Assembly (NCBI GenBank): GCA_012729595.1 | Contig: JAAYCU010000255.1 | Span: 1 to 41,971 of the forward strand | DNA: 41,971 nt | Source: Phycisphaerales bacterium | GTDB lineage: Bacteria > Planctomycetota > Phycisphaerae > UBA1845 > PWPN01 | Direction of reading: 5' to 3' | Shown: positions 7,555 through 23,318 of the stretch, piece after piece | Numbering within the stretch: position 1 is the stretch's first letter | Layout of the letters: each line of letters opens with the position of its first letter | The notes under the pieces: generated by a model | Seen by the model: only the letters and a program-made list of their open reading frames with translations | Told to the model about the DNA's origin: nothing | Database searches by the model: none | Position numbers and translations under genes: made by a program

Positions 7555-7598
7555 TTGCATAATGCAATACATATATATTTATAGATTGCATTATGCAT
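7555..7598. promoter_or_regulatory. Paired palindromic operator / upstream activator sites
   Basis: Two near-palindromes, TTGCATAATGCAA (7555-7567) and TTGCATTATGCAT (7586-7598), lie 31 bp apart, about three helical turns. Together they form a 13-bp inverted repeat (7556-7568 and 7585-7597) around an AT-rich spacer. A third copy with 11 of 13 matches, TTGCATATTGCCA, is at 9014-9026 ahead of the second operon. Position (about 80 bp upstream of the -24 element of one operon and about 60-100 bp upstream of the activator start) fits binding sites of the sigma-54 activator encoded at 7656. Confidence 0.65.
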
Positions 7599-7655
7599 TA
7601 TTCCGATTATAATGGAACAGAGAGCATTGATTTTGGCTACCGGGAGATGCAGGGC

Positions 7656-9008
7656 ATGAAAGCAGATCAATCGCAAGACGTTATCCTCGACTCGATCAAT
7701 GAAGGGGTCTTCACGGTCAATCTGGATTGGCGGATCACGGCGTTCAACAAGGCCGCCGAACGGATCACCGGCGTTCCCCGCCGGGACGCCCTGGGCCGTC
7801 CCTGTTGCGAGGTGTTCCGGGCCAGTATCTGCGAAAGTGCCTGCGCCCTGCGGCAGACCCTGAGCACGGGCAAGCCGATCGTCAACGCGACCGCGCATAT
7901 TGTCAGCCATACGGGGCAGCGTATCCCGATCCGCATTTCCACCGCCTTGCTCAAATCGCCGGACGGGAAAGTCATCGGCGGGGTGGAGTCCTTTCAGGAC
8001 CTCAGCCAGGTCGAGCAGTTACAGAAGCAGCTCGAGGCCCGGTACACGTTCGAGGACATTGTCGGGCGCAGTGCCGCGATGATGAATCTTTTCCAGATTC
8101 TGCCGCAGATCGCCGAAAGCTCCAGCACCGTACTGATCGAGGGGGCCAGCGGTACGGGCAAGGAGCTTTTCGCCCGGGCCATTCACAATCTTTCTCCGCG
8201 GAAAAAGAAACGTTTCGTGGCCATTAACTGTGCGGCATTGCCCGATACGTTGCTGGAATCGGAGCTTTTCGGGCACAAGGCGGGAGCGTTTACCGACGCC
8301 CGTCGCGACAAGCCTGGACGCTTCGCCATCGCCGACGGAGGCACGATTTTCCTGGATGAAATCGGGGATATTTCGCCGGCCATGCAGGTGCGGCTGCTCC
8401 GCGTTCTGCAGGAACGGGCCATCGAGCCGCTCGGCGCGCTCGAATCGATCAAGGTCGACGTTCGGGTCGTGGCGGCCACGAACAAGGATCTGGTCAAACT
8501 CGTGCGGGCGGGCAAGTTTCGCGAAGACCTGTTCTATCGAATTCGCGTGGTCCATCTGAAACTGCCCAGTCTGCGGCAGAGACGCGAGGACATCCCGTTG
8601 TTGATCGATCGTCTGGTAGCCAAATTCAATCGCCTGCAGGGCAAGGATCTCGCCGGGGTGTCGAGAGAGGTGTTGGCCCGGCTGATGGATCATGATTATC
8701 CGGGCAACGTGCGTGAGCTGGAAAACATCATCGAACAGGCGTTCGTGCTGTGCCGGGGGGGGCTGATCGAGCTGCACCACCTGCCCCCCGAATTGCGGCC
8801 CGCGGCCGGGCAATCGACCGGTGAATATGGAGGCCCCGCCACCCTGGAGGCCATGGAAAGGCTACTGATCGCCGAAGCCCTGCACCGCCATAAGGGGAAT
8901 CGCAAGCAAACTGCCCGCGACCTCGGCATCGACACCAGCACGCTCTACCGCAAACTCAAGTCCCTGGGGATCGAAACTCCGTCGTCGGATGGACGCAGCC
9001 GGGGATAA
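7656..9008 (+). CDS. Sigma-54-dependent transcriptional activator, PAS-AAA+-Fis
   Basis: A 450-residue enhancer-binding protein. Residues 8-130 form a PAS sensor domain with several cysteines (CCEVF, SICESACAL), which could sense redox state or a metal cluster. Residues 140-370 are the AAA+ motor with Walker A GASGTGKE, the sigma-54 contact loop GAFTDA (210-215) and Walker B GTIFLDEIGD. Residues 415-440 are a Fis-type helix-turn-helix (RKQTARDLGIDTSTLYRKL). The canonical loop is GAFTGA; GAFTDA occurs in some PAS-linked activators. I start at ATG 7656, with GGGAG nine bases upstream; an ATG at 7593 lies inside the operator repeat and is unlikely. It sits between two divergent operons, as DVU2106 does in the Desulfovibrio ORP locus, and probably controls both. 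Confidence 0.92.
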   Translation: MKADQSQDVILDSINEGVFTVNLDWRITAFNKAAERITGVPRRDALGRPCCEVFRASICESACALRQTLSTGKPIVNATAHIVSHTGQRIPIRISTALLKSPDGKVIGGVESFQDLSQVEQLQKQLEARYTFEDIVGRSAAMMNLFQILPQIAESSSTVLIEGASGTGKELFARAIHNLSPRKKKRFVAINCAALPDTLLESELFGHKAGAFTDARRDKPGRFAIADGGTIFLDEIGDISPAMQVRLLRVLQERAIEPLGALESIKVDVRVVAATNKDLVKLVRAGKFREDLFYRIRVVHLKLPSLRQRREDIPLLIDRLVAKFNRLQGKDLAGVSREVLARLMDHDYPGNVRELENIIEQAFVLCRGGLIELHHLPPELRPAAGQSTGEYGGPATLEAMERLLIAEALHRHKGNRKQTARDLGIDTSTLYRKLKSLGIETPSSDGRSRG

Positions 9009-19792: not shown

Positions 19793-20488
19793 TTATCGCG
19801 AGCGGCCGAGCAGTCCGGAGCGCATGAGGAAATACAGCAGGGTCAGGATCGAGGTAATGGTCGCGGCCACGTAGGTCATGGCCGCCGCGTTCAGCACGCG
19901 GGCGACTTCGCGGTCCTCCTGCTCGGTGACGAGGCCGTTCATGACCAGAGTATCGCGGGCCCGCCGACTGGCGTTGAACTCGACGGGTAGATTGATGATC
20001 TGAAACACGACGACGGCCGCGAAGAGCAAGGCGCCGATCCCCACCATATTGGTCAGGCCCATAGCCAGCCCGATCATTGCCAGCATCATGCCGAAGCTCG
20101 ATCCGATGTTGGCGACCGGCACGACCGCGTTACGCAGACCTAGCGGGGCGTATCCCCGGGCGTCCTGAATTGCATGGCCCACCTCATGGGCGGCGACCCC
20201 GGCGGCGGCCAGGGAACGGCCGCTGTATACGTCGGGACTCAGCCGCAGCACCTTGGCCCGCGGATCGTAATGATCGCTCAGGTGGCCGCGAATCGGCTCG
20301 ATGGATACGTTGCGGATCCCGTTGGCGTCCAGAATGGCCTGGGCGATCTGAGCCCCGGTCCAGCCGCGGCGGGCAGGGATTCGGCTCCCCCGGGCGAACG
20401 CGGATTTCACTTTCATCTGGGCATAGAGGCCGATCAGCAAACCGGGCAAGGCCACGTAGAGCATGTACATCGGGTCAAAGAACCACAT
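19793..20488 (-). CDS. YugP-type membrane zinc metallopeptidase
   Basis: A 231-residue integral membrane peptidase of the Zn_peptidase_2 (YugP) family. An N-terminal transmembrane helix (residues 8-24) is followed by the zinc motif HEVGH (101-105) in GVAAHEVGHAIQDA. Two central helices (about 118-165) lie around GLTNMVGIGALLFAAVVVF, then comes LPVEFNASRRA, where the Glu is the usual third zinc ligand, and a last helix. ATG 20488 is used, with AAGGAGGT seven bases upstream; three extra codons in the longer frame are not needed. Family members are widespread and of unknown substrate. Confidence 0.9.
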   Translation of the reverse strand: MWFFDPMYMLYVALPGLLIGLYAQMKVKSAFARGSRIPARRGWTGAQIAQAILDANGIRNVSIEPIRGHLSDHYDPRAKVLRLSPDVYSGRSLAAAGVAAHEVGHAIQDARGYAPLGLRNAVVPVANIGSSFGMMLAMIGLAMGLTNMVGIGALLFAAVVVFQIINLPVEFNASRRARDTLVMNGLVTEQEDREVARVLNAAAMTYVAATITSILTLLYFLMRSGLLGRSR

Positions 20489-20661
20489 CGAAACCACCTC
20501 CTTATGGTTGCTCGCCGACCGAGGGCGAAAGTTACAAATCAGTCATTTATACGCCTATAACAGGCTGCAAGATTAGTACCAGAATCGAAAAATACATAAA
20601 CCTATTAACAACAGTCATTTATAAACACTTGCGGCGATTAAGGAGCGGCCATTATGGCAGA

Positions 20662-21141
20662 TCAGCATTGATTTTTCAGGTCGGATTCGCTGAGGACATC
20701 GAATTTCTGCTTCCGCAGCGTTTCGGCCGCCGCCTCGATATTGTCCACGGACAATGCAATGGTCGGGCCGATATTGGCGGATATCAATGGGTAGGTGTAT
20801 GCGACATTTATTTCGCTGGAAAGCAAGGTAGCGAATATCGACAAAAGACCGCGTTTCCCGTGAGGCAGCGAGACAATAAGCACCTCGGCGACACTAACCG
20901 CGAATCCCTCGTTTTTGAGTACCTCGATCGCCTCGTCGAGATCATCAAAGAGCAGGCGAACAACCGAGCAATCGACCGAGTCGATCACCGATATACCAAG
21001 AATCTTAACTTCTTTACTTTCAACTACTTTCGTCAGCTTGAGAAGCTGTCCAACCCGGTTATCGAGAAATACGGAAATCTGCCGTACACCTGCATACCCT
21101 TGGCCTTCAAGAGTCTCATAGGGCAGTCTGGCTCTGGTCAT
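20662..21141 (-). CDS. Tandem ACT-domain protein
   Basis: A 159-residue protein with two ACT domains. The first spans about residues 17-80 (QISVFLDNRVGQLLKLTKVV, LGISVIDSVDCSVVRLL), the second about 85-150 (VLIVSLPHGKRGLLSIFATLLSSEINVAY in part). Such proteins are small amino-acid or ligand sensors without a catalytic domain. ATG 21141 is preceded by AAAGGTG at good spacing. It is divergent from dnaK, sharing a 263-bp intergenic region with a palindrome at 21203-21219. Ligand and target are unknown. Confidence 0.83.
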   Translation of the reverse strand: MTRARLPYETLEGQGYAGVRQISVFLDNRVGQLLKLTKVVESKEVKILGISVIDSVDCSVVRLLFDDLDEAIEVLKNEGFAVSVAEVLIVSLPHGKRGLLSIFATLLSSEINVAYTYPLISANIGPTIALSVDNIEAAAETLRKQKFDVLSESDLKNQC

Positions 21142-21202: not shown

Positions 21203-21219
21203 CCTGCCAGTCTGGCAGG
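21203..21219. promoter_or_regulatory. Palindromic operator between the ACT gene and dnaK
   Basis: CCTGCCAGTCTGGCAGG has 7-bp perfect arms around GTC. No T-run follows, so a terminator is unlikely. It lies about 86 bp upstream of the -24 element of the dnaK promoter, the usual place for a sigma-54 activator site, and about 60-80 bp upstream of the ACT gene start. Confidence 0.5.
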
Positions 21220-21304: not shown

Positions 21305-21320
21305 TGGCACTGTGTTTGCA
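21305..21320 (+). promoter_or_regulatory. Sigma-54 (-24/-12) promoter of dnaK
   Basis: The bases TGGCACTGTGTTTGCA are an exact match to TGGCAC-N5-TTGCA, with the GG and GC dinucleotides 10 bases apart. Transcription would start near 21332, leaving a 73-base leader before ATG 21405. No CIRCE inverted repeat was seen in the leader. Confidence 0.75.
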
Positions 21321-21404
21321 TAACTCCATGGCATTGCGGTAATTGTGATGTACGCGCTCCATCGGTTGATGGCTTCGCGACTTATAGCCAGGGAGATTCA
21401 AGGC

Positions 21405-23318
21405 ATGTCGAAAATCATTGGCATCGATCTGGGGACCACGAATTCGGTAGTGGCGGTCATGGAAGGTGATCAGCCGAAGGTCATCACCAACGCCCAGGGT
21501 TCGCGTCTGACGCCCTCGGTGGTGGGTTTCACGGATAAGGGCGAGATTCTGGTCGGCCAGATTGCCCGGCATCAGCAGGTGACCAACCCCCAGAACACCG
21601 TTTTTTCCATCAAGCGCTTCATGGGCCGGCGGCATGACGAAGTCCAGTCCGAGGAAAAAATCGTACCCTATGCGGTCGTTGGTGGTCCGACGGATCTGGT
21701 CAAGGTCGACGTACGCGGCAAGCAGTACACACCGCCGGAAGTCTCCGCGATGGTCCTGCGCGATCTGAAAAAGACCGCCGAGGATTATCTGGGCGAGCCG
21801 GTCACTCGGGCTGTGATAACCGTTCCGGCTTATTTCAACGACTCGCAGCGGCAGGCCACCAAGGACGCCGGCGAGATTGCCGGTCTGAAAGTCGAGCGGA
21901 TCATCAACGAGCCGACGGCGGCGGCGCTGGCTTACGGGTTGGAGAAGAAGGCTAACGAGAAGATCGCCGTGTTCGACCTCGGCGGCGGCACTTTCGATAT
22001 TTCCATCCTCGACATCGGCGACAACGTGTTCGAGGTGCTCAGCACCAGCGGCGATACTCATCTCGGCGGCGATGACTACGACGAGGAGTTGATTAACTTC
22101 GTGGCCGAGGAGTTCCGCAAGAAGGAAGGCATCGACCTGCGCAAGGATCCAATGGCCTTGCAGCGTTTGAAGGAGGCTTGTGAGAAGGCCAAGTGCGAGT
22201 TGTCCACGACCCAGGAAACGACGATCAATCTGCCGTTCATCACGGCCGACCAGAGCGGGCCGAAACACCTGCAGGAGACCATCACCCGGGCGCGTTTCGA
22301 GCAGTTGACCCTCCAGTTGACCGAGCGTTGCCGCGGGCCGGTGCTCAAGGCCCTGGCGGACGCGAAGCTTTCGCCGAGCGAGGTCGATGAGGCGGTGCTG
22401 GTGGGCGGTTCGACCCGGATGCCGGCGGTACAGCGGCTGGTCAAGGAAATCTTCGGCAAGGAGCCGAACAAGAGCATCAACCCGGACGAGGTGGTGGCCG
22501 TCGGGGCCGCCATTCAGGGCGCCGTTCTGTCCGGCGAAAAGGACGATATCGTTCTGCTCGACGTGACCCCGTTGTCGCTCGGCGTGGAGACGCTCGGCGG
22601 AGTGATGACCAAACTGATCGAGCGGAACACGACGATTCCGACGAGTAAGAAAGAGACCTTCAGCACGGCCGCGGATAATCAGACGGAGGTGACCATCCAC
22701 GTGCTGCAGGGCGAGCGGGAGATGGCCTCCAACAACCGGTCGCTCGGCCGCTTCAACCTGACCGGCATTCCGCCGGCGCCGCGGGGCATTCCGCAAGTCG
22801 AGGTGATCTTTGACATCGACGCCAACGGCATCCTCAACGTCTCGGCCAAGGACATGGCCAGCGGCAAGGCCCAGTCGATCCGCATCGAGGGTTCCAGCGG
22901 ATTGAACAAGCAGGACATCGAGCAGATGCGCAAAGAGGCCGAAGAGCATGCCTCCGAAGACAAGGCCCGGCGCGAGCTGGTGGACCTGCGCAACCATGCG
23001 GACAACGCCGTCTATCAGACGGAAAAGACGTTGAAGGAATACGGCGACAAGGTGCCCGCCGACGAGCGCAGCAAGATCGAGTCGGCCTTGAATCAGCTCA
23101 AGAGCGTGATGAAAGGCGACGACAAGGACGCGATCTCCAAGTCGCTGGAACAAGTGGCCAGCACCTCGCAGGTGATCGGCAAGATCATGTACGAGGAGGC
23201 GGCGAAGCAAGCCGGCGGAGCGGCCCCGGGGGAAGCGGCCCAAGGCGCCGGCAGCGAAAGCGCCACCAGCGGCAAAGATGCGGACGTGATCGACGCCGAG
23301 TTCGAGGAAAAGAACTGA
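21405..23318 (+). CDS. dnaK: Molecular chaperone DnaK (Hsp70)
   Basis: A 637-residue Hsp70. The nucleotide-binding domain has [14 protein letters not shown], the second phosphate motif [12 protein letters not shown] and the [13 protein letters not shown] adenosine block. The linker [14 protein letters not shown] leads to the substrate-binding domain, and the C-terminus is a helical lid with a Gly/Ala-rich tail ending in DVIDAEFEE, the usual bacterial DnaK ending. ATG 21405 is the correct start ([12 protein letters not shown]); the upstream 20 codons in frame are leader. No grpE, dnaJ or hrcA is adjacent, so this is a solo dnaK. Together with the sigma-54 promoter this suggests control other than HrcA or sigma-32. 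Confidence 0.98.

Follow-up and report, generated by a model that had tools for sequence, protein, structure and literature searches.

The locus raises the question of what controls dnaK in this Phycisphaerales bacterium, heat-shock gene control in planctomycetes being so far an open point. In Rhodopirellula baltica, heat induces dnaK, groEL, grpE, clpB and hsp20 but not rpoH, rpoE or rpoN; the authors of that study suggested a different response cascade (PMC2754498). These data fit control through an activator, the R. baltica genome itself being outside the present analysis. We analysed the surroundings of dnaK within a stretch of 41,971 nucleotides (hereafter the window, i.e. the whole DNA analysed), for which an initial annotation, made from the sequence alone, had proposed a sigma-54 promoter upstream of the gene. 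Our reading is that dnaK very likely (probability about 0.86) belongs to a Planctomycetota-wide, sigma-54-dependent stress (heat-shock) regulon with a dedicated NtrC-type activator. That the activator binds DNA, that heat induces the genes and what the signal is are inferences from sequence, without binding, transcript or mutant data behind them, and parallel control by HrcA or sigma-32 is not excluded.

The dnaK gene (21405..23318, + strand) encodes an HSP70 protein of 637 aa (Pfam PF00012, E = 8.6e-264), and its ATG start is supported by alignable relatives. The -24/-12 element, TGGCACTGTGTTTGCA (21305..21320, + strand), matches the consensus exactly (TGGCAC-N5-TTGCA), with the invariant GG and GC at fixed spacing; it begins 100 bp before the ATG and ends 85 bp before it, the latter distance being the one given by the initial annotation. 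From general sigma-54 geometry, a transcription start is predicted at 21331 (+ strand), i.e. about 12 nt past the GC of the -12 box (21318-21319). A pattern scan of the whole window returned this element as the sole exact match, and only three are present in the whole 4.1-Mb genome, a fragmented assembly of 406 contigs that also carries rpoN (G000:C152, PF04552, E = 2e-52) and that, by its nearest named relatives, groups with the Phycisphaerae (Planctomycetota). When up to two mismatches were allowed, matches were no commoner than chance in the window. Because loose matches occur at chance frequency, the consensus match alone is weak evidence, and the case rests on conservation.

Conservation in relatives was the check that the initial annotation had put forward. 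Start and upstream DNA were readable for 10 of 12 family relatives, and all ten (L014-L023) carry a -24/-12-like element 73-156 bp before the dnaK start, the weakest being that of L019. The survey was then set on 74 DnaK loci from named genomes (51 Planctomycetota and 23 from other phyla). With at most one mismatch, TGGCAYN5TTGC was found within 300 bp of dnaK in 46 of the 51 Planctomycetota (exact in 30) and in 3 of the 23 others, against a background of 1.5 % of 4,676 windows from the same loci (0.06 % for exact matches). A good element stands before a few dnaK genes outside the phylum, namely at L101, L107 and L111 (SpSt-1156 bacterium, Neomarinimicrobiota and Thermoanaerobaculia). In the same family, a good -24/-12 site was also sought upstream of the paralogous HSP70 genes, and none was found; the same control was accordingly rejected for the paralog of the genome studied here (G000:C221). 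The element is thus conserved before Planctomycetota dnaK genes and absent from most dnaK genes of other phyla and from paralogous HSP70 genes. Two other claims of the initial annotation also held: none of the relatives scanned has a CIRCE within the 600 bp before dnaK, and dnaK is solo as far as checked, no grpE, dnaJ or hrcA being detected among the 19 window ORFs (not every ORF) scanned with Pfam. Computation shows the -24/-12 element of dnaK to be real and conserved, its transcript start and its need for RpoN and ATP being inferred.

Side-by-side comparison of upstream regions revealed a feature that the initial annotation had missed, an enhancer-like inverted repeat, TGCCAGTCTGGCA (21205..21217), which is a putative activator site for dnaK. 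With its flanks (21204-21218) it forms a perfect dyad, CTGCCAGTCTGGCAG, located 100 bp before the -24 box, and it is the only exact match of the repeat pattern in the window. Its conserved position meets the distance criterion for an activator site (~80-200 bp upstream). Among the first 122 loci fetched, TGCCAN3TGGCA occurs in 30 others, just upstream of dnaK in all except L046, and across the class-wide dnaK set the repeat lies 89-148 bp from the -24 box; marine relatives carry weaker versions of the dyad, e.g. GCCAATCTGGCAG or GCCGTTCTGGCAG. The intergenic region is shared with a divergent gene encoding an ACT-domain-pair protein (20662..21141, - strand; PF19571, E = 1.1e-16), whose start is 64-76 bp from the dnaK enhancer. 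In 20,000 dinucleotide shuffles of this 263-bp region, TGGCAYN5TTGC appeared in 53 and TGCCAN3TGGCA in 22, and promoter and repeat together in none. From position and conservation, and without binding data, the CTGCCA-N3-TGGCAG dyad is likely to be an activator-binding enhancer. A separate observation concerns a second dyad, GTAAG-N17-CTTAC, which 34 of 90 modules (L331-L418) carry in the stretch that separates the enhancer from the -24 box when up to two mismatches are allowed, whereas other spacings gave 0-8 of 90; its positions, counted from the TGG, are mostly -43/-44, -54/-55 or -62/-63, about one helical turn apart.

The distribution of the enhancer-promoter pair was assessed in 394 Planctomycetota genomes with the composite pattern TGCCAN3TGGCA-N75..105-TGGCAYN5TTGC, the reversed pattern serving as control. 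About 95 matches were obtained in 77 genomes, and the control gave 0 in any genome. The pattern is strict, and the 317 genomes without a match may still have the system. Of 90 matches inspected, 85 precede genes for major chaperones, i.e. dnaK (25), groES/groEL (44), Hsp20 (15) or clpB (1); of the remaining five, one precedes secA, another a receiver-like ORF that is followed by an ispG-like ORF, and three are unclear. The first 49 dnaK/groEL assignments relied on sequence motifs; Pfam checks were also made. In 6 of the 44 groES/groEL matches a receiver-domain gene heads the groES-groEL operon, the operon itself being confirmed by reading for two.

In the genome studied here, the pair is present on both dnaK and groEL. 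A dyad with a good -24/-12 box was found before groEL (G000:C223, also G002 and G008), before clpB (G000:C318 in a near-consensus version, also G004) and before Hsp20 pairs (G006 and G008). The dyad alone showed no clear enrichment genome-wide in the family. For the elements, their spacing, their conservation and the gene set, computation shows that dnaK, groES/groEL, Hsp20 and clpB share a sigma-54 enhancer-promoter module across the Planctomycetota.

Three observations were made alongside this survey. At L413, in one genome, secA sits downstream of a strict enhancer and sigma-54 composite. In family f78 (L331-L336), the groES-groEL operon, which has the same enhancer and promoter, is led by a gene encoding a receiver domain only. 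In the groEL leaders of three family genomes (L146, L163 and L178), a conserved block, CCCTGTCATAA-N-GCAG, lies downstream of the -12 box.

The window holds a further candidate target, a gene for a YugP-like membrane zinc metallopeptidase (Zn_peptidase_2; 19793..20488, - strand; PF04298, E = 3.3e-86). Upstream of it are a second -24/-12 element, TGGTACTAATCTTGCA (20566..20581, - strand), and a second enhancer-like inverted repeat, TGCCATAATGGCC (20647..20659, - strand), each with one mismatch. The repeat lies 78 bp upstream of the -24/-12 element, a spacing kept at 78 bp in L014, L016 and L017 and at 79 bp in L020. Relatives have TGGCAC or TGGCAT versions of the promoter at the same place, some of them a perfect TGGCACN5TTGCA. 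Besides dnaK, this gene is probably the other regulon member within the window.

The genome encodes about 17 sigma-54 activators, and BLAST orthology was ambiguous (43 % vs 42 % identity), so a tree was built. The candidate that emerged is an NtrC-type protein (G000:C276:7220-8587) made of a receiver, an AAA+ domain (Sigma54_activat, PF00158, E = 2.3e-68, with the GAFTGA loop present in the alignment) and a Fis-type helix-turn-helix (PF02954). In the tree it forms one clade with 12 activators of family f22 and 23 orthologs of other families (support 100/99), which leaves out every other activator of its own genome. The helix-turn-helix is near-invariant in the clade (GNRE-AA-LGIGERTLYRKIKEYGL or GNRE-AA-LGIGERTLYRK), with few changes across the phylum. 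A best match to the candidate was obtained in 61 of 61 class genomes searched; in other classes, one top match stood clear of the next in 38 of 40 genomes, the exceptions (G438 and G412) both also lacking the composite. A quick tree of the wider phylum, including other classes, placed no paralog from the genome studied here in the clade, with low basal support (0.28).

Eleven small f22 relatives (1.9-2.8 Mb) encode exactly one true sigma-54 activator each, other PF00158 matches being weak AAA hits that were not counted, and most small f22 genomes are enriched for sigma-54 sites (e.g. 34 in G351 vs 4 in the reversed control). Three single-activator genomes with chaperone promoters were inspected, and sites were found before dnaK in each, with groEL and clpB in addition in G379 and groEL in G329 (in G351 the site read precedes dnaK). 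Since only one true activator is encoded, no rival is available for the chaperone promoters of these genomes. Gene order gives further indirect support: in G423, from another class, a histidine kinase gene and the clade activator gene are followed by the enhancer, the sigma-54 promoter and dnaK. Many genomes have a small soluble histidine kinase gene immediately upstream of that of the activator. In the genome studied here, the activator gene (L185) comes after rpsO and pnp and is followed by a histidine kinase gene and by the gene of a second activator; this downstream kinase is the only one seen adjoining it. The receiver of the candidate has Thr at the position of the phospho-accepting Asp, which is kept in most aligned orthologs.

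Besides the degenerate receiver and the low basal support of the wider tree, some results speak against this picture. In G379 the promoters on groEL, clpB and dnaK are kept (L262, L264 and L267) without a recognisable enhancer dyad, and in f56 genomes the activator is present and the strict composite pattern was not found. The enhancer repeat was sought near activator loci and found at none, for which reason autoregulation of the activator through its own enhancer was rejected. The window itself encodes a further sigma-54 activator of PAS-AAA-HTH_8 architecture (7593-9008, + strand), which was rejected as candidate as it falls outside the clade in the tree. The initial annotation had suggested that sigma-54 would tie dnaK to a specific activator; this is supported, with a good candidate now identified. 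One NtrC-type activator clade, vertically inherited, likely drives the chaperone regulon, DNA binding being inferred and the support from single-activator genomes and from G423 synteny being indirect.

In the mechanism that we propose, sigma-54 RNA polymerase would occupy the -24/-12 box as a closed and silent complex, and the activator, bound to CTGCCA-N3-TGGCAG about 100 bp (roughly ten helical turns) upstream, would loop to the polymerase and open the promoter by ATP hydrolysis upon protein damage. The same enhancer and promoter would drive groES/groEL, Hsp20 and clpB and, in the window, probably the zinc metallopeptidase gene. Where the receiver is intact, the linked soluble histidine kinase likely phosphorylates the activator, kinase control being inferred. 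The genome studied here may use another trigger, because Thr replaces Asp in its receiver and the only adjoining kinase lies downstream; release from chaperones is one such trigger, offered as speculation. As to the signal, the initial annotation had mentioned stress or nitrogen/redox. The nitrogen/redox part is unsupported, and because the shared targets are dnaK, groEL/ES, Hsp20 and clpB, we infer protein-damage or heat stress. A bolder reading, which we consider likely, is that a single ancestral kinase/activator pair governs the core heat-shock response of Planctomycetota (dnaK, groEL/ES, Hsp20, clpB and the membrane zinc protease) as a sigma-54 enhancer regulon.

Among rival explanations, the one with most in its favour accepts both promoter and enhancer as real and has another of the ~16 other activators (e.g. 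an NtrC, or the PAS-type protein encoded at 7593-9008) drive dnaK. The number of activators in the genome, the lack of linkage between candidate and dnaK there, and the lack of a recognisable repeat in G379 speak for it. However, single-activator genomes offer no alternative activator, the candidate is near-universal with a near-invariant DNA-binding helix, and kinase, activator, enhancer and dnaK stand in that order in G423, so that we hold this explanation to be unlikely.

Less plausible still, and in our view very unlikely, is that the repeat is a repressor operator, CIRCE-like with its own repressor, the sigma-54 box being minor and repression of a sigma-70 promoter being the main control. 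Perfect dyads are typical of repressors, and in Chlamydia hrcA-grpE combines CIRCE with a sigma-66 and a sigma-54 promoter in tandem (PMC8762339). Against this, a repeat that lies 89-148 bp ahead of the -24 box is in the position of an enhancer and not of an operator, it recurs with sigma-54 boxes while the reversed control gives 0, and no CIRCE was found in the 600 bp scanned. That the element is a chance match to the consensus, without role in dnaK control, could be argued from the chance frequency of two-mismatch matches in the window, but it is all but excluded by phylum-wide conservation at the same place with the paired repeat, and by the empty reversed-pattern control.

If the sigma-54 reading is correct, the regulon has been retained in genomes so reduced that its activator is their only sigma-54 activator. 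Control of this kind predicts a pre-bound silent polymerase and hence an ATP-dependent switch for chaperone induction that leaks little in the basal state. A defined enhancer, a defined promoter and a single activator make the hypothesis directly testable in culturable planctomycetes, and the 90 matched enhancer-promoter pairs, together with one activator clade, should be useful for working out the DNA code of the recognition helix.

The link between sigma-54 and chaperones in this phylum was already known as a prediction. An in-silico study (PLoS One 2025, PMC12316311) reported GroEL, GroES, IbpA, GrpE, DnaJ and DnaK as enriched among predicted sigma-54 targets in Planctomycetia, and less so in Phycisphaerae. 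That predicted regulon rests on promoter boxes only, the authors noting that not all its organisms have activator specificity available, and terms for upstream activator sites or enhancer-binding proteins are absent from the text searched. No description of a planctomycete heat-shock activator or enhancer was found in the searchable literature; the present work adds the enhancer motif, the activator clade and, as a probable target, the zinc metallopeptidase gene.

The nearest experimental precedent is the HsfB-HsfA phosphorelay of Myxococcus xanthus, acting on lonD (Ueki and Inouye 2002, cited in PMC9109919), in which, as proposed here, an NtrC-like response regulator works with a histidine kinase to activate a heat-shock gene directly. 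It differs in its hybrid kinase and in its known targets, the protease gene lonD and genes for secondary metabolites; no phylum-wide regulon comprising dnaK, groEL, Hsp20 and clpB is reported for it, and our analysis included no comparison with HsfA itself. Within the wider PVC group, Chlamydia hrcA-grpE likewise has a sigma-54 promoter on a dnaK-system operon, but there HrcA is the main heat control and heat shock lowers sigma-54 (PMC8762339). HrcA/CIRCE and HspR/HAIR share with the present system a short inverted repeat common to dnaK and groEL promoters; their operators lie beside sigma-70 promoters, whereas here the dyad is upstream of a sigma-54 promoter and no CIRCE is present. Finally, the sigma-32 (RpoH) regulon of Escherichia coli is similar in that an alternative sigma factor positively controls dnaK, groESL, clpB and ibp genes. 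In that system sigma-32 itself is the regulated quantity, whereas in planctomycetes sigma-54 would be constant and the ATP-driven activator would be the switch, which, if true, would be a class of its own among bacterial heat-shock controls, next to sigma-32 and to repression by HrcA or HspR.
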